From a virus: a stretch of DNA of 27,147 nucleotides. Each line of letters starts with the position of its first letter. Position 1 is the first letter of the stretch. The stretch spans positions 1 through 27,147 of the IMG/VR virus record IMGVR_UViG_3300009183_000315; one strand, 5' to 3'. Made by a program: the position numbers and the translations under genes. A model generated the notes under the pieces. That model was not told the DNA's origin. It saw nothing but the letters and a program-made list of their open reading frames with translations, and made no database searches. Of the stretch, positions 10,993 through 16,888 are shown in pieces.

Positions 10993-11745
10993 TTAATGTA
11001 CCCGCTTTTGGTGGTCTGGATATTTGTTACTATCGGTATGAATACCATTAAAATACCTTCTTCCAGACTGGTGTGGTTTAAGCCTGTCTACCCCACCTCT
11101 TTCTTTTGAAAGATTATTCATTTCTTCAATTTCATTAATATGTAATTGTTTATCAAATAAATTACTAACCAGTTCTACTTCAAAGTTATCTACAAAGTAT
11201 CTTGGAATAGGAATAAATGCTCCTATTGCATCACCCTTTTTTATTGTTATTTTTTGGTTTGGAATTGTGATTTTAAAGTTAAACGTAAAGTCTCTTCTTA
11301 TTTGGTCTGTTTCTATTACCCCAGTCATGGCAGAACATCCAGGTATAAAAAGGTTTGGTGGTTGTATAGTCATTATATTAATACCAATTGGAGTCTTTAA
11401 TGCAAATAGATTTTGTATTGTTACAATGCCTTTGCCAAAACCATTTTTAATTATTTGTTTTTCTTGATTATCATTATTTAAAAAATTAATCATAGCGTCT
11501 GAATCTGTACCGTCCCAAGACACCTCAAAGTCTCTAAGTGAATTAATTACAAATCCGTATTGATTTCCAATAGTAAGTGGTAAACAATAATAAAAATGAG
11601 AATTAAACCAATCTCTTTTGGTTTCACCCTTTAATGGTTTGATAACTTCTTTATACCAACCATCATTATCTAGTGAATGTGGAACTATAGCAATTTTATT
11701 TTCTGGAATTTCAAATCCAGAATTATTTAAATAATTACCAGACAT
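10993..11745 (-). CDS. DUF6065-like protein, 250 aa
   Basis: The protein carries the motif run I associate with DUF6065: DGWYKEVIKPLKGETKRDW, YGFVINSLRDFEVSWDG, GFGKGIVTIQNLFALKTPIGINI, IPGCSAMTGVIETDQIRRDFTFNF and ITIKKGDAIGAFIPIPR. The function of the family is unknown to me. Its ATG lies 11 nt inside the end of the oxygenase gene, so the two are translationally coupled. Given that coupling it may act on the same substrate as the oxygenase and glycosyltransferase; this is inference from position only. Confidence 0.65.
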   Translation of the reverse strand: MSGNYLNNSGFEIPENKIAIVPHSLDNDGWYKEVIKPLKGETKRDWFNSHFYYCLPLTIGNQYGFVINSLRDFEVSWDGTDSDAMINFLNNDNQEKQIIKNGFGKGIVTIQNLFALKTPIGINIMTIQPPNLFIPGCSAMTGVIETDQIRRDFTFNFKITIPNQKITIKKGDAIGAFIPIPRYFVDNFEVELVSNLFDKQLHINEIEEMNNLSKERGGVDRLKPHQSGRRYFNGIHTDSNKYPDHQKRVH

Positions 11746-12289
11746 AACTTAGATTTTTTTCAAATGTCCAAAATGAGGCAATAGTATATCTAATGTTATT
11801 TTTAATTTTAGTAACTCCATGCAAATGCTCTGGATCTCCTGGATGTATTGCTAATTTACCAGCCTCTGGAGTTATTTCAAAATTATAGTTTGGATAATAA
11901 GTATGTCCGCCCTCATAGTCATCATTAAGATATATAATAGATCCAAAAACCCTATGCTCAAAACCCTTTATGTCTGTATTTGTCATATCGTCTGCATGTG
12001 GAGTTTGTTCCATTTCTGGAAACCAACGAATTGCCTGCAAGGTATCAGAGTACACTGGTTTATCTATATTATATTCTTCTTTAATTTTTGCAGCACACCT
12101 TAAATTTGCATCTTTCATAATTTCTGCTGCAACTTTATCATAAGTTAATAACTTACTATAATTAATTACACGGTTGTCCCAAAATCCAGAACCTCCACTT
12201 TCCCATAAAGACGAATCTTTAATTTTATTTATTAAATATTCACAATCTTTTTTTAAAATAAAATTTTTAAACGTTTTTGCTTTATTCAT
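11735..12289 (-). CDS. Prolyl-4-hydroxylase-like 2OG-Fe(II) oxygenase
   Basis: A 184-aa double-stranded beta-helix oxygenase of the P4H type, expected to use 2-oxoglutarate, O2 and Fe(II) to hydroxylate a peptidyl side chain. The iron triad is visible: H98 and D100 in QTPHADD, and distal H157 in EHLHGV. R167 in RYTIASFW is placed to bind the 2OG carboxylate. The YLNDDYEGGHTYYP and AGKLAIHPGD strands are typical. I chose ATG 12289 (GGGGAGA site) over an ATG five codons upstream. It overlaps the GT60-like gene by 8 nt. Proline is the likeliest target because the partner resembles a hydroxyproline GlcNAc-transferase; aspartyl or lysyl substrates cannot be excluded. Confidence 0.8.
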   Translation of the reverse strand: MNKAKTFKNFILKKDCEYLINKIKDSSLWESGGSGFWDNRVINYSKLLTYDKVAAEIMKDANLRCAAKIKEEYNIDKPVYSDTLQAIRWFPEMEQTPHADDMTNTDIKGFEHRVFGSIIYLNDDYEGGHTYYPNYNFEITPEAGKLAIHPGDPEHLHGVTKIKNNIRYTIASFWTFEKNLSYVW

Positions 12290-13238
12290 TTCTCCCCTTA
12301 TCAATTAACTCTTTTCTCCAATTTCTCCAAGAATCAAATAATTCTCCTAAATTATAACCAACGTAGTTATAAAAACTTTCTATACTTCTTTCATAAAAAA
12401 TATCATTTTCTTTAATATCTTTACCTATTAGTATATCAATAATTCTGTCTGTTGTATAGTCTCTTAATAAAAAATATTTTTCTGGAAAATCTTGAACTAA
12501 TCTTGGTCTTTTTATTCTATCAGAATACAAATGATAAATTGGTACATTTTTTGGAATATAAACGTTATATCCAGCAGTAAAGGCTCTAACACCGTTTAAA
12601 ACTTCTTCTCCCCAAAATAAAACCCAGTCTGGTTGTGGAATTTTTTTAAAATAATCACTTAAAGAAAAAATAAAATGTCCAGTTAAATACCAATCAATAG
12701 CGTATTCCTTGTTTTCAAGTGTTTGTAAAACTATTCCCCTTGGAGATAGGTCGTAGGAATGCAAAATATTCTCTTTGGTTGTGTCAGTATGCACAGTAAA
12801 TGAAACTGGATAATCTTGTTGTTTTTTTTCTTCTGTGCCATCTTCTAAAATATCAAAAACTGGTAACGCACCGCTAAGTATTGCTTTATTATCACCTGTA
12901 GACTCTATAATATTAATTAATTTTGTATCCCATCCTTTATCAAATCTTGAATGAGAGTCTACTTGTAAGGTGTATTTATAAGTACTGTCAAGCCATTTTA
13001 AACAACGATTTCTACAAGCGGTAACGCTAAAAACTGTACCAGCCTGCTCAATTTCATATTTAACTTTATTGTTATATGTTTTTTTTAGGCTTAAATTTTT
13101 AATTTCATTTTTTAAAGCATGTATAAAACATCCAACTGTTATATTTTCTGGATTATCTGCTTCAAGAAAAAGTGAATCTATTGTACTTTGTAAATATGGA
13201 TCTCGATAAGATGCTATTGAAACATAAATCTTATTCAT
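12282..13238 (-). CDS. GT60 (Skp1-type) GlcNAc-transferase-like glycosyltransferase
   Basis: A 318-aa GT-A fold protein. Landmarks match the family of Skp1 hydroxyproline alpha-GlcNAc-transferases: N-terminal IYVSIASYRDPYLQSTIDSLF, then RNRCLKWL, LQVDSHSRFDKGWD (D94-S95-H96 in the place of a DXD metal site), LTGHFIFSLSDYF, WVLFWGEEVLNGVRAFTAGY (GEE at 210-212) and VPIYHLYSDRIKRPR (H236). It would transfer a sugar from a nucleotide donor to an acceptor such as a hydroxyproline or another hydroxyl. ATG 13238 is chosen because it forms a TAATG coupling with the Cys4 gene. Donor and acceptor specificity are inferred from the family. Confidence 0.8.
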   Translation of the reverse strand: MNKIYVSIASYRDPYLQSTIDSLFLEADNPENITVGCFIHALKNEIKNLSLKKTYNNKVKYEIEQAGTVFSVTACRNRCLKWLDSTYKYTLQVDSHSRFDKGWDTKLINIIESTGDNKAILSGALPVFDILEDGTEEKKQQDYPVSFTVHTDTTKENILHSYDLSPRGIVLQTLENKEYAIDWYLTGHFIFSLSDYFKKIPQPDWVLFWGEEVLNGVRAFTAGYNVYIPKNVPIYHLYSDRIKRPRLVQDFPEKYFLLRDYTTDRIIDILIGKDIKENDIFYERSIESFYNYVGYNLGELFDSWRNWRKELIDKGRNE

Positions 13239-13462
13239 TACCATTTTCCTATTGGGCATCTGGATGCTTCAATTTTTGTTTTTGCTGTCATAAAACATCT
13301 ACATTTTTTACATTGTTTTGTAATTTGTATTAATTCTGGGCAAGATATGCATATATCAAGTCTTGATTTTGCAACTTCATCACTAACACGGTTAGTTCTT
13401 GGATTTAAAAAATCCAGTGGAGTTGATCCATTTTTTTCTTTATACTCTGACCACTTACTCAT
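13238..13462 (-). CDS. Small Cys-rich (zinc-ribbon-like) protein, 74 aa
   Basis: The second half holds six cysteines: CISCPELIQ, QCKKCRCF and RCPIGKW. The CxxC plus CxxC spacing suggests a structural Zn site. The first half (MSKWSEYKEKNGSTPLDFLNP) is polar. It is coupled to the glycosyltransferase by a TAATG overlap and follows the 121-aa gene after 1 nt, so it belongs to the modification operon. Similar small proteins occur beside glycosyltransferases in other phages; the role is unknown. Confidence 0.7.
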   Translation of the reverse strand: MSKWSEYKEKNGSTPLDFLNPRTNRVSDEVAKSRLDICISCPELIQITKQCKKCRCFMTAKTKIEASRCPIGKW

Positions 13463-13463
13463 A

Positions 13464-13829
13464 TTATTCCCCTGTTTTAATAATAAATTTTACACCGTCA
13501 AAACTAGCCTTTAAATCTTCTACATATCCGCCATTTTCATATTTTGATAAATCTAATATTAATGGATTTGAAAGTAAAATTGAACCTACATACTCTGTGG
13601 TTTGCCATGTTTCTACTACTTGATCATCTATTAATATTTCTATTGTCATACCATTATGTTCTATATATTCAGATGAGACATCTCTAAATTCTGTAGCGTC
13701 TAATAATTTTTGTCCAAATGTAGCCCAGACTGGAGCAGTATACAAAACCTCTCTATCAATAACAAAGGCAACCCCTATGCCTGGAATTTCTGGGCTATAA
13801 ATATAATCAATTGAAGCATCTGTTACCAT
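13464..13829 (-). CDS. Hypothetical beta-rich protein heading the modification operon, 121 aa
   Basis: No family recognised. The sequence alternates short beta strands (VAFVIDREVLYTA, MTIEILIDDQVVETW, VKFIIKTGE) with polar loops, like a small virion or tail component. It has an AAGGAG site and a TATACT box about 20 nt upstream. It is followed after 1 nt by the Cys4 gene. It could be a structural protein or an acceptor of the modification enzymes downstream; nothing in the sequence decides this. Confidence 0.6.
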   Translation of the reverse strand: MVTDASIDYIYSPEIPGIGVAFVIDREVLYTAPVWATFGQKLLDATEFRDVSSEYIEHNGMTIEILIDDQVVETWQTTEYVGSILLSNPLILDLSKYENGGYVEDLKASFDGVKFIIKTGE

Positions 13830-13862
13830 ATATTTTTCTCCTTATTAAAAGTATATCTTATC

Positions 13863-14438
13863 TTATCCATAATTACAAGTTGTTGTATATCCACACTGTC
13901 CTCCACGAACACCACCACAACATCCGCTTGGATAGCATAGACCATTAATAACATCTTGTGTAGTACAAGATTTGTTTTGAACAGGTGGTGGCGTCGCAGG
14001 TGGTGGCGTCGCAGGTGGTGGCGTCGCAGGTGGTGGCGTCGCAGGTGGTGGCGTCGCAGGTGGCGGCGTTACAGGTGGTGGCGTTACGGGTGGTGGGGGA
14101 GGAGGAGGTGGGGGTGGTGGTGCTGCTCCTGCTGGAGAAACGTTATTGCTTGCTGATGAAAACTCAGAATCTAAAACAGTATTACTTAACTTTACTGTAA
14201 AACTATAAGATGTTCCATTTGATAATCCAGTAACTGTAATTGGTGATCCAGATCCAGTATTAGAAATTGAACTAGGAGATGAAACTACTGTATAAGTTAA
14301 AGAAGAATTTGGTTTACCTAAATATGTTGGTGCTGTAAATGTTACACTTGCTTGACCATCGCCAGCAGTTGCAGACCCAATTGTTGGTGTTCCTGGTTTA
14401 CGACCAGCAGAAGATGATACGGGTCCTAGTCTTGACAT
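13863..14438 (-). CDS. fn3 domain, (PPPAT)n stalk and Cys-rich tip protein, 191 aa
   Basis: A three-part fibre-like protein. Residues about 14-102 form an fn3-like domain (GTPTIGSATAGDGQASVTF...ITVTGLSNGTSYSF). Residues about 107-152 are a run of prolines followed by seven PPP(A/V)T units. The last 40 residues carry six cysteines (C158, C168, C173, C174, C182, C188) in a Gly-rich tip that may be disulphide-bonded. ATG 14438 is used because it gives the TAATG coupling. The stalk should form a polyproline II rod, an ideal substrate for a prolyl hydroxylase and a hydroxyproline glycosyltransferase such as those encoded just downstream; that link is inference. Confidence 0.75.
   Translation of the reverse strand: MSRLGPVSSSAGRKPGTPTIGSATAGDGQASVTFTAPTYLGKPNSSLTYTVVSSPSSISNTGSGSPITVTGLSNGTSYSFTVKLSNTVLDSEFSSASNNVSPAGAAPPPPPPPPPPPVTPPPVTPPPATPPPATPPPATPPPATPPPATPPPVQNKSCTTQDVINGLCYPSGCCGGVRGGQCGYTTTCNYG
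13984..14088 (-). repeat. 15-bp perfect tandem repeat encoding PPPAT
   Basis: Five identical 15-bp units (plus strand GGTGGTGGCGTCGCA, 13984-14058) and two variant units follow one another in frame. Near-perfect identity, including third positions, points to slippage-driven length variation of the proline stalk. Confidence 0.95.
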
Positions 14439-15166
14439 TATGCAACTAAGTCTCCAAGAACAACCCAAGAGTCAGTAGCACGTTTAATACATACGGCAGA
14501 TGACCATTGTGCTCTTAATTTTAATCCTGGAGTTCCGTTTACAGTTGTAGTTCCTGGAGTAGTTGCTGCAATAGTTACCTGTCCCGTGCTTGTTTGTAAA
14601 ATTGTAATTTGTGCACCTGTTGCAAATGCTTGGTTGGCGTTTGTTGGAATTGACAAGGTAACTGCAGAAGCACTTGACACCTCAACCATTTTTCCATTAT
14701 CGGCAAGAACAAGTTCATAGGCAACTGTTTGTGGATTAATTGAAAGATTTATAACTGGAGCAGTTAAAGTTTTATTAGTTAGTGTTGCACTATTAGTAAG
14801 TGTAACATCTGGTGTTGTCCAGGCTAAACCTGATGCTGTTGCTGAGTTGGCTGTTAAAACTGTTCCATTACTTCCAACAGATAAAATAGATAATGTGTCA
14901 TTTGCTGAAGCAGAAAGTAGATCACCTTTAGCAGCAAAGTCTGTTTTTAGTAGTGCAGTTGAAAGATCAATTGCAGTTATCTGACTTTGTAAACTATTAA
15001 TTGTATAAGCAATAGATGGATTTACAAGGTTTGCTGTATTAGAGTTTGATGTAGTATATGTATAATCTCCATAGTGATATAAACGCAGTGCTGCTTGTAT
15101 GTCGGCAGGATCTGATAATCCTGGAATTTTAGTTGGTACTAACGTACCTATTGATTCTGCTGCCAT
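14438..15166 (-). CDS. Tail-fibre protein, 242 aa
   Basis: The N-terminal 60 residues (TKIPGLSDPADIQAALRLYHYG...) resemble a baseplate-attachment segment. The middle contains KGDLLSASANDTLSILSVGSNGTVLTANSATASGLAW and TLTNSATLTNKTLTAPVINL, a repeat style common to phage fibre shafts and also present in the long fibre at 1-1932. The C-terminal 90 residues form a beta domain (NGKMVEVSSASAVTLSIP...LRAQWSSAVCIKRATDSWVVLG) widespread in phage fibre tips. Probable trimeric short tail fibre. Confidence 0.8.
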   Translation of the reverse strand: MAAESIGTLVPTKIPGLSDPADIQAALRLYHYGDYTYTTSNSNTANLVNPSIAYTINSLQSQITAIDLSTALLKTDFAAKGDLLSASANDTLSILSVGSNGTVLTANSATASGLAWTTPDVTLTNSATLTNKTLTAPVINLSINPQTVAYELVLADNGKMVEVSSASAVTLSIPTNANQAFATGAQITILQTSTGQVTIAATTPGTTTVNGTPGLKLRAQWSSAVCIKRATDSWVVLGDLVA

Positions 15167-15203: not shown

Positions 15204-15791
15204 CTAAGACTCCTCATCTAAAATTGTTATAAATAAATGTGTTGTTACTTCTCCCTCTAAAACCGCCCAATCTCCATATGGGCCAGAATCTACATCTGTT
15301 CTATGCTCAACTGCTTTAAAGTTTATAACTAAATTTTGATTGTTTCCAGCAAGTGCGGGTATGCTCATAGAGGCTGCAACTGGATTATCATTAACAATAC
15401 TAAATTGAACACTGAAGTTACTAGCAGTTAGTGATGTTTCAGAGGTAATATTTGAAATAGGAATCACAATCTGTGCAACTCCATTGACATAAGTTGTTGT
15501 GTGATTAACTGAATAGATTGTTGGATTTAATTCTAAAACTTCAATCCAGGTATTTCCTCCAGGTTGAGATACGTATTGATATAAATATCCATAATCTGCA
15601 CCTGGAGAGGTATTAATGTATAAATCATTTAGTAGTGGGGTTTGTCCAATTTCAATAGTGTTGGGATCTCCTATTCCAACAAATGTTTGACTTCCACGAG
15701 TTCCTGTTGGTCCAATATCTACAAGAAGTTCTACAACTTCTGGGGGACCAAGAACTGTAATGTCGTCATTGTTTAATAAAACATCAGGCAT
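15204..15791 (-). CDS. Tail-fibre protein with short collagen-like start, 195 aa
   Basis: After an acidic N-terminus comes DIGPTGTRGSQTFVGIGDP, a short collagen-like G-x-T segment that often introduces phage fibre domains, then LLNDLYINTSPGADYGYLYQYVSQPGGNTWIEVLEL, a Trp/Tyr-rich beta motif. The C-terminal half is a beta-sandwich-like region of unknown family. Coupled to the upstream Ig-like gene by TAATG. A virion fibre role is likely from composition and context. Confidence 0.7.
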   Translation of the reverse strand: MPDVLLNNDDITVLGPPEVVELLVDIGPTGTRGSQTFVGIGDPNTIEIGQTPLLNDLYINTSPGADYGYLYQYVSQPGGNTWIEVLELNPTIYSVNHTTTYVNGVAQIVIPISNITSETSLTASNFSVQFSIVNDNPVAASMSIPALAGNNQNLVINFKAVEHRTDVDSGPYGDWAVLEGEVTTHLFITILDEES

Positions 15792-16132
15792 TATACTGCA
15801 CCAGTAATATCATTGGTTACTGTAATTGATCCAGCAAGTAGTGTATAAATTTGTGTTCCGTTTGTAATTTGAACGTCATAGACATAAGTTCCTGCTGAAA
15901 GTGTTCTTCCAATTGCTGGAGTAATTGTGCATGTTACAATGTCTGTTGTTGTATTAACAACTGTAACAGCAGCAGTTTGAGTACCGCTTGGTCCTGATTG
16001 ATTTGCAATTGTAAAAGCGGCAGTATAACCTGTTAAATCAAAGGCTGAACCATCCGTTGTTTTAGGTCGAACCACAAATTGAGATGTGTCGCCACGGTAA
16101 TAACTAAAACTATAACTGCCTGGAAATGCCAT
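15791..16132 (-). CDS. Ig-like tail/baseplate protein (BppU N-domain-like), 113 aa
   Basis: Paralogue of the 2630 and 16982 gene products: YSFSYYRGDTSQFVVRPK, SAFDLTGYTAAFTIANQ, LSAGTYVYDVQITNG and a final AGSITVTNDITGAV. It is the clearest member of the trio and the shortest, close to the size of a single Ig-like domain. AGGAGGA precedes the ATG. Probably caps or anchors a fibre at the tail tip. Confidence 0.7.
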   Translation of the reverse strand: MAFPGSYSFSYYRGDTSQFVVRPKTTDGSAFDLTGYTAAFTIANQSGPSGTQTAAVTVVNTTTDIVTCTITPAIGRTLSAGTYVYDVQITNGTQIYTLLAGSITVTNDITGAV

Positions 16133-16156: not shown

Positions 16157-16888
16157 TTAACAAACAGCAATATAGATACCATTTAGAACTATATTACTTT
16201 CATTATCTGCCCTGAATTGAATTGCTCCACCTAGTGTTCTAATTCTTTGAGCATCTAGATATATGGTTTGGTTATATGACATATCGTATGAGTATTGATA
16301 TTTTAGAGTTGAAACATATCCTATTGGAGAGTTGCTATAATCTGGAACAAATAACCTAGCCCAAACCTCTGTATTATTCATATAAGTAGTTATAGTAAAG
16401 TCATATCTTACATCTACCTTTGCTCCAATTTTTAAGGCTTTAAAGTTAAAATTTTTTGATTCATTATTCCATAAAGTATTTGCACCGATTGGCATATAGA
16501 TCTCATTAGATGTTTCTTCGTCTTTCATAAAATTTATAGATACCCATCCGTCATCCCCTCTTTCTGGACCAAGCCTAACTTCACTTAAATTTTTATTCCT
16601 ATAATATGCCCATCCTGGATATTGACCAGATACGCTGTCATAGCCTTCTGCACCCTTACCTGGCTCTCCTCGCTGTCCTTGTGGACCTTCGGGACCTCTA
16701 TCCCCTTTTTCTCCTTTTAAACCTTGTATACCTTGATCACCTTTTTCACCCTTTGGTCCAGTTTCACCTTTTTCACCTTGGATTCCAGGAACAGCAATAT
16801 ACTGTGTATTTAATTCTTGGGTGCCTTGTACTGCTTCGGAGTATTTTTTCTTTTTTGAAACGTCTGGGAAGTCCATGCTTTTAGCCAT
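16157..16888 (-). CDS. Collagen-like tail-fibre protein, 243 aa
   Basis: Residues about 35-77 are an uninterrupted Gly-X-Y run (GEKGETGPKGEKGDQGIQG... to GEPGKG), rich in Lys/Glu/Asp pairs that stabilise triple helices without hydroxyproline, though it does contain X- and Y-position prolines. Next is a YDSVSGQYPGWAYYRNKNLSEVRLG segment, then a C-terminal beta domain of about 140 residues that may trimerise. There is no good ribosome site at ATG 16888, so translation is probably coupled to the genes upstream. The prolines are possible targets of the P4H-like enzyme 4 kb away. Confidence 0.85.
   Translation of the reverse strand: MAKSMDFPDVSKKKKYSEAVQGTQELNTQYIAVPGIQGEKGETGPKGEKGDQGIQGLKGEKGDRGPEGPQGQRGEPGKGAEGYDSVSGQYPGWAYYRNKNLSEVRLGPERGDDGWVSINFMKDEETSNEIYMPIGANTLWNNESKNFNFKALKIGAKVDVRYDFTITTYMNNTEVWARLFVPDYSNSPIGYVSTLKYQYSYDMSYNQTIYLDAQRIRTLGGAIQFRADNESNIVLNGIYIAVC

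Follow-up and report, generated by a model that had tools for sequence, protein, structure and literature searches.

Does a bacteriophage hydroxylate the prolines of its own virion stalk and then decorate that stalk with sugar? The question is raised by two minus-strand genes in a 27,147-nt stretch of viral DNA (positions 1 to 27,147 of IMG/VR record IMGVR_UViG_3300009183_000315; this whole stretch is called the window below). One of them, OXY (11735-12289), encodes a prolyl-hydroxylase-like 2-oxoglutarate (2OG)-Fe(II) oxygenase; the other (12282-13238) encodes a GT60-type glycosyltransferase (GT) and overlaps OXY by 8 nt. The GT starts about 0.6 kb downstream of the end of a gene for a proline-rich stalk protein (13863-14438, minus strand), and a collagen-like open reading frame (ORF) lies about 3 kb away. 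From these landmarks, all of which are present, the initial annotation had proposed that the phage applies to its stalk or collagen-like fibre the two-step chemistry of the Skp1 pathway, in which a prolyl 4-hydroxylase (P4H) is followed by the transferase Gnt1 (PMC3515798 and PMC8724618; these and all papers below are cited from excerpts). On balance, and with reservations set out below, we infer a substrate, a sugar and an order of steps: OXY would probably hydroxylate stalk prolines, and the GT would glycosylate the stalk. The window also has a near-identical copy (99.99% over 20,975 bases) in a 109,757-base phage contig, G001.

Sequence profile and fold both support OXY as a prolyl-hydroxylase homologue, with its activity a prediction. 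OXY matches PF13640 (3e-7, 31.8 bits vs a cut-off of 27), and a profile of OXY and its relatives (nine) matches the Bacillus P4H (5.7e-19), the hydroxylase vCPH of PBCV-1 (5.7e-14) and P3H1 (7.3e-10), as well as algal and animal P4Hs. The OXY model (pLDDT 92.9) superimposes on P3H1 with a Z of 19.4 (rmsd 2.5, 175 aligned) and on vCPH with a Z of 17.9 (rmsd 3.1, 163 aligned); prolyl hydroxylases fill the first 29 VIA-align rows, save row 22, an unassigned 2OG oxygenase. An H-x-D...H...R signature (H98, D100, H157 and R167) is invariant in all 80 relatives that were kept. We take H98, D100 and H157 to be the metal triad and the basic R167 to be the 2-oxoglutarate residue. PADLOC returned a generic 2OG model as the only match for OXY, and the OXY alignment found no relative in bacterial genome contigs. 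Four PHROGs families (phrog_2297, phrog_274, phrog_2954 and phrog_3531) also match these oxygenases, under labels (DNA endonuclease, ferrochelatase) that look wrong, and two virus records with (PPPPT) arrays, G011 and G030 (loci L020 and L056), hold seven PF13640 matches each.

The GT falls in PF11397 (6.4e-38, 131.6 bits vs a cut-off of 21), which we take to correspond to CAZy GT60. Its model has a pLDDT of 74.8, and the best fold matches are polypeptide GalNAc-transferases (Z about 19); a search by sequence found no solved structure for any GT60 relative. The fold is GT-A with a D-x-H, as in peptide HexNAc-transferases, and this motif, presumably the metal motif, occurs as a DSH invariant in 10 aligned members. 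These data support a GT60-type family member whose model is nearest peptide O-glycosyltransferases, with donor and acceptor as predictions. The initial annotation's naming of both enzymes, P4H-like and GT60-like, is upheld.

The candidate substrate has a stalk and a tip. The stalk protein has 191 aa from an ATG at 14438 (an alternative start is the TTG at 14468) and consists of an fn3-like domain (8.6e-4, below cut-off), a proline-rich stalk and a Cys-rich C-terminal tip. The array, at 13983-14120 on the minus strand, reads P11 followed by VT, PPPVT, five PPPAT and PPP. It comprises, as the initial annotation had claimed, an 11-proline run and PPP(V/A)T units numbering exactly seven, of which the first shares the run; its 15-nt repeat has a TRF score of 188. 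The tip recurs in related phages: 26 of the 30 complete proline-rich proteins from dereplicated OXY loci have at least three Cys in their last 60 aa, vs 5 of 298 other ORFs. Across OXY loci the repeats vary among PPPxT, PPVT, PPPIIAT, PPIIAVT, PPVV and pure polyproline, the last 24 to about 40 residues long or longer. Because some of these, (PPVV)n and polyproline, are free of Thr, proline is the feature common to the stalks.

We observe a side-specific linkage between OXY and such stalks. An OXY alignment search gave 114 relatives, of which 80 were kept in 44 clusters at 95%; 34 clusters had at least 2.5 kb upstream and 27 had as much downstream. With a strict definition of a proline-rich ORF (at least 20 Pro in 40 aa, counted on the same strand), one lay upstream of OXY in 25 of 34 clusters and downstream in 0 of 27. 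Thresholds of 14 to 18 Pro gave 25-27/34 and 0/27. Random viral loci, scored on either strand, had such an ORF in 5/120 at a threshold of 20 and in 14/120 at 14. A cassette order of stalk, Cys4, variable cargo, OXY and DUF6065 recurs, specific in strand and side, with OXYs down to 52% identity.

The linkage was also present in a sample anchored on a conserved 113-aa tail-region protein (15791-16132, minus strand), which was picked irrespective of OXY or Pro. Of its 589 relatives 80 were kept, some of them in loci already known, giving 50 clusters, 49 with at least 3.5 kb downstream. At a threshold of 16 Pro, a proline-rich ORF was found in 14 of 15 loci with an OXY-type enzyme vs 7 of 34 lacking one (p 2e-6); under a narrow OXY model the counts were 9/10 and 12/39 (p 0.001). 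Adding OXY-B, a second probable oxygenase family described below, gave 15/16 vs 6/33, and these six were all (PFF)n arrays; L457 was the sole oxygenase locus without a proline-rich ORF. In a post hoc split that removed (PFF)n, an oxygenase accompanied nine of nine other arrays vs 1 of 28 loci without arrays. The (PPFF)n or (PFF)n repeats form a different stalk class in related tail regions (L444, L464, L487, L484, L420, L429, L421, L485 and L489), and at a threshold of 16 an oxygenase was nearby in 6 of 12 loci of that class.

The transferase could be approached from the array itself. A DNA pattern of three PPPxT units, blind to neighbouring genes, found at least 119 stretches; PPPxT is coded in frame in at least 122 loci, including those known earlier, and one match (L114) is out of frame. 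PF11397 occurred in 14 of 49 array records with mostly at least four units, in 1 of 50 with mostly three units and in none of 50 random virus records; three of the 14 had already been found by the GT search, though the PPPxT pattern finds them too. PF13640 was present in 11 of 16 GT60-positive records (with the window and G001 both counted) and in 3 of 50 random records. Among 24 loci selected by GT, 12 had a clear OXY, four a weak OXY-like match and eight none on the stretch examined.

GT60 is one of several transferases that occupy the cassette. Among OXY records, GT60 is found in 12/44 (11/43 plus G001), GT61 in 13/44 and both in 0/44; the chance of never meeting together is 0.007, in a set where many records are fragments. 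Neither turned up in any of 50 random virus records. The GT60s beside OXY fall into three well-supported, deep clades with differing gene orders, plus single long branches, in a tree whose backbone is unresolved. Among the ORFs tested, the remaining cargo comprises radical SAM/SPASM and JmjC/cupin proteins, an APS kinase, a UDP-glucose dehydrogenase, proteins resembling a sulfotransferase (below cut-off) and a GDP-mannose dehydratase, and a transferase that we take to be of GT4 type. These patterns suggest that related phages keep the hydroxylase and swap the glycosyltransferase (GT60, GT61 and others) and the repeat sequence. In the initial annotation GT60 was the partner of the P4H; the tight operon with the stalk agrees with that. 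What it had missed is that GT60 is only one of the exchangeable transferases. Two further loci may be recorded here. L186 (808-2610) is a cassette that combines an APS kinase with the sulfotransferase-like gene (below cut-off), which hints at sulfated glycans, and in L402 (3453-5122), an uncultured SAR86 assembly and possibly a viral contig, an OXY-like gene (7.8e-24) adjoins a GT60-type gene.

Several observations weigh against the proposed two-step modification of the stalk. The GT model is of only moderate quality. OXY and GT60 are separable: 32 of 44 OXY records lack GT60, eight of the 24 GT-selected loci lack an OXY-type match, several of these being fragments, and among bacterial GT60 loci an OXY-like neighbour occurs in 1/38. 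Of the 84 array records negative for GT60, 50 were searched, and PF13640 was found in 10 of these (G045, outside the 50, holds OXY). Nine of the 34 OXY loci with at least 2.5 kb upstream have no proline-rich ORF at the strict threshold, and in the neutral sample the link is weaker at a threshold of 20 (6/15 vs 2/34, p 0.007), an effect due mainly to (PFF)n repeats, whose scores are 15-20. L244 has OXY and GT60 with no proline-rich ORF in its 5 kb upstream (maximum 5 P in 40), and L177 and three near-copies combine a weak OXY-like match and a 25% GT60 with no proline-rich ORF. The co-occurrence of the pair with proline-rich fibres, for which the initial annotation had proposed a survey, holds for OXY and stalks and fails in L244 and the L177 group. 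The statistics treat clusters of 95-97% identity as independent, which phylogenetically they are not; the random viral control was based on one 14-mer; and many contigs are fragments, several of them beginning inside repeats.

Do the two enzymes act on the same residue? It is possible, if doubtful, that they leave separate marks, OXY on Pro and the GT on the Thr of PPPxT, the latter enzyme being a peptide GlcNAc-transferase of mucin type that does not require hydroxyproline. The GT60 family has both acceptor types, hydroxyproline and mucin-type Thr/Ser, the latter in its pp-alphaGlcNAcTs (PMC8724618), and the GT model here is nearest ppGalNAc-Ts. Among OXY-selected clusters whose array is visible, PPPxT is the main unit in all six that have a close GT60, vs 1 of the 24 others (L221). 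Furthermore, OXY is missing from 6 of 22 GT60 loci after dereplication (sampled in part through OXY, and leaving out Xanthomonas phage XacN1), and where arrays are visible beside such GT60s they contain Thr (PPPTT in L002/L003, PPPPT in L150 and PTPPAPT in L435). However, L435 and L002 carry OXY-B, and the partner stalks of OXY can be free of Thr. In L229-type phages, OXY and a distant GT60 accompany P13-P24 runs with no Thr inside, although Thr precedes some runs; these Thr-free runs beside GT60 point towards a Pro-derived acceptor. We slightly favour a sugar on hydroxyproline rather than on Thr.

Other readings change the substrate altogether. OXY might serve the collagen-like fibre protein (16157-16888, minus strand), as is thought for vCPH in PBCV-1, leaving the proline-rich stalk a bystander. 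vCPH is among the best OXY fold matches, and the collagen-like ORF 3 kb away is recurrent in some cassettes, but Gly-X-Y runs of at least eight units occur in 4 of 34 OXY loci (6 kb upstream examined) vs 25 of 34 for proline-rich ORFs, and the 14-unit run of the window has three X-Pro and one Y-position Pro. On this scarcity of runs we judge it unlikely that collagen is the main OXY substrate, and we think it highly improbable that the stalk is a bystander; of the two substrates named by the initial annotation, the stalk is the stronger and the collagen-like fibre the weaker candidate. Nor is it at all probable that the pair modifies phage DNA, in the style of TET/JBP plus a glucosyltransferase, or host lipopolysaccharide, wall or a small molecule. 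PHROGs label relatives 'DNA endonuclease' and OXY has a weak Tet_JBP match, but this match (0.064, 12.9 bits) lies under the cut-off of 34.9, so OXY falls outside that family and DNA modification by OXY was rejected. The OXY profile and fold indicate protein prolyl hydroxylases, the GT belongs to a protein-GlcNAc-transferase family, and both genes sit in a tail operon, linked to proline-rich stalks. Finally, hypervariable tail regions may gather hitch-hiking sugar and oxygenase genes with no functional link. In its favour is the highly variable cargo (radical SAM, an epimerase, UDP-glucose dehydrogenase and a sulfotransferase-like protein), but the recurrent strand- and side-specific order across OXYs down to 52% identity and the persistence of the OXY/Pro-rich link in the neutral-anchor sample speak against this explanation, which is highly improbable too.

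We conclude that the stalk, and not collagen, is the likely substrate, that GT60 is one option of several, and that the core idea of a phage-encoded modification of a proline-rich protein is strengthened. In the proposed pathway, the phage would make a virion protein whose polyproline stalk carries a Cys-rich tip, and phage-encoded enzymes, presumably cytosolic, would modify the stalk during infection. OXY would add a hydroxyl to stalk prolines, and the GT60-type enzyme would add a sugar, for which HexNAc is the best guess, to stalk hydroxyproline or to the Thr of PPPxT. The pay-off may be stiffening, shielding from proteases or altered surface recognition. A broader version is that a fast-evolving polyproline stalk, a conserved OXY, Cys4 and DUF6065 helpers and a slot for exchanging glycosyltransferases (GT60, GT61 and others) and additional modifying enzymes together yield a phage-specific, hydroxyproline-linked glycan coat resembling the decoration of extensins; this we put forward as a tentative idea, plausible and short of probable.

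The proteins named as helpers lie in the same tight minus-strand gene series, which runs from a tail-fibre-like gene (14438-15166; phrog_8780, minor tail, 3.6e-14), immediately upstream of the stalk gene, through the stalk, a 121-aa protein of unassigned function (13464-13829) with relatives in several other cassettes, Cys4 (13238-13462), the GT and OXY to DUF6065 (10993-11745). Cys4 is zinc-ribbon-like, with six Cys invariant among nine relatives; it matches phrog_13558 (3.4e-16) and, below cut-off, DUF6171 (22.7 vs 27). It precedes OXY in 29 of 34 loci. The DUF6065 protein has a Pfam match at 2.5e-35 and follows OXY in many cassettes: a scripted count gave 16/29, omitting any gene whose overlap with OXY exceeds 50 nt, and the maps show more. 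We found for it no solved relative (best E 0.42), no match in GenBank phages at 1e-3 and no paper naming DUF6065 in the open-licence PMC literature. Both proteins travel with the cassette, in keeping with the suggestion that they may be accessory parts. OXY-B, with examples at L002:4037-4732 (minus), L435:8068-8625 (plus) and L190:2759-3307 (plus), is called a probable 2OG oxygenase because of its H-x-D...H pattern, invariant in seven members. It is almost without Pfam signal (a weak PF13532 match in two of seven members, best 0.0019) and without a solved relative in our search. It was found in 30 of 80 OXY loci and in 3 of 120 random loci.

The host is probably an actinobacterium, judging from two sequences of G001: its DnaE is 55% identical to those of Streptomyces phages, and its ribonucleotide reductase 60% to those of mycobacteriophage Gaia and the lake Actinomycetia phage DSL-LC01. 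DSL-LC01 was absent among the 105 matches of the OXY search in GenBank phages; its annotation, read outside 50-80 kb, includes collagen genes. G001 also carries, within 60517-66207 (L377:517-6207), a nucleotide-sugar epimerase (phrog_540, 2.8e-92) that could supply donors. At 1074-1545 the window has 60-nt tandem repeats, probably within a minus-strand tail gene, and the plus-strand ORF at 1022-1648 is likely the antisense of that gene.

How does the locus compare with known systems? Like PhyA/Gnt1 of Dictyostelium, it pairs a cytosolic-type P4H with a PF11397/GT60-type transferase, here as a pairing of genes alone; enzymes of the Skp1 pathway are often fused odd-even in protists (PMC8724618). 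Unlike that pathway, which acts on one Skp1 proline in oxygen sensing, the phage candidate target is a repeat stalk of virion type. If our reading is right, it would resemble the extensins and arabinogalactan-proteins of plants and algae, in which polyproline repeats on a rod-like surface protein receive hydroxyl groups from a P4H and then sugars, although the phage enzymes would work in the bacterial cytosol without a secretory pathway. Plant and algal hydroxyproline glycosylation uses other transferase families, GT95, GT77 and others. PBCV-1 vCPH is likewise a viral prolyl hydroxylase of similar fold, but it belongs to a virus of a eukaryotic alga and has collagen-type substrates, and we know of no GT60 paired with it in an operon. 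Phage-encoded glycosylation of virion proteins also occurs in actinobacteriophages. A phage transferase related to ours (28% identity across 75% of the query) is that of XacN1, the one GenBank phage record found by the GT search; the annotation lists no oxygenase or proline-rich protein in 16.8 kb around it. Proteomics found at least two glycoproteins in the XacN1 virion (PMC5852040).

To our knowledge, hydroxyproline glycosylation is known neither from a phage nor from its bacterial host, and a literature search, confined to open-licence PMC, found no paper on it in phages. The abundant auxiliary genes of viruses in the Baltic Sea water column include those for prolyl hydroxylases, and the viral use of P4H was called cryptic (PMC9301287), and EGLN3-like folds are widespread in phages of marine bacteria (PMC12774648); bacteria and viruses have been said to lack collagen prolyl hydroxylases (PMC3368898). 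The linkage between OXY and stalks offers a concrete, testable substrate for viral P4Hs, namely the phage's own proline-rich stalk. If this is true, phages would carry out hydroxyproline glycosylation in the style of plants, which would explain why oxygenase and sugar genes lie in tail regions, and the small enzyme pairs could serve to produce glycosylated polyproline rods in bacteria. Transferase swapping, in turn, would indicate that selection acts on the glycan itself.

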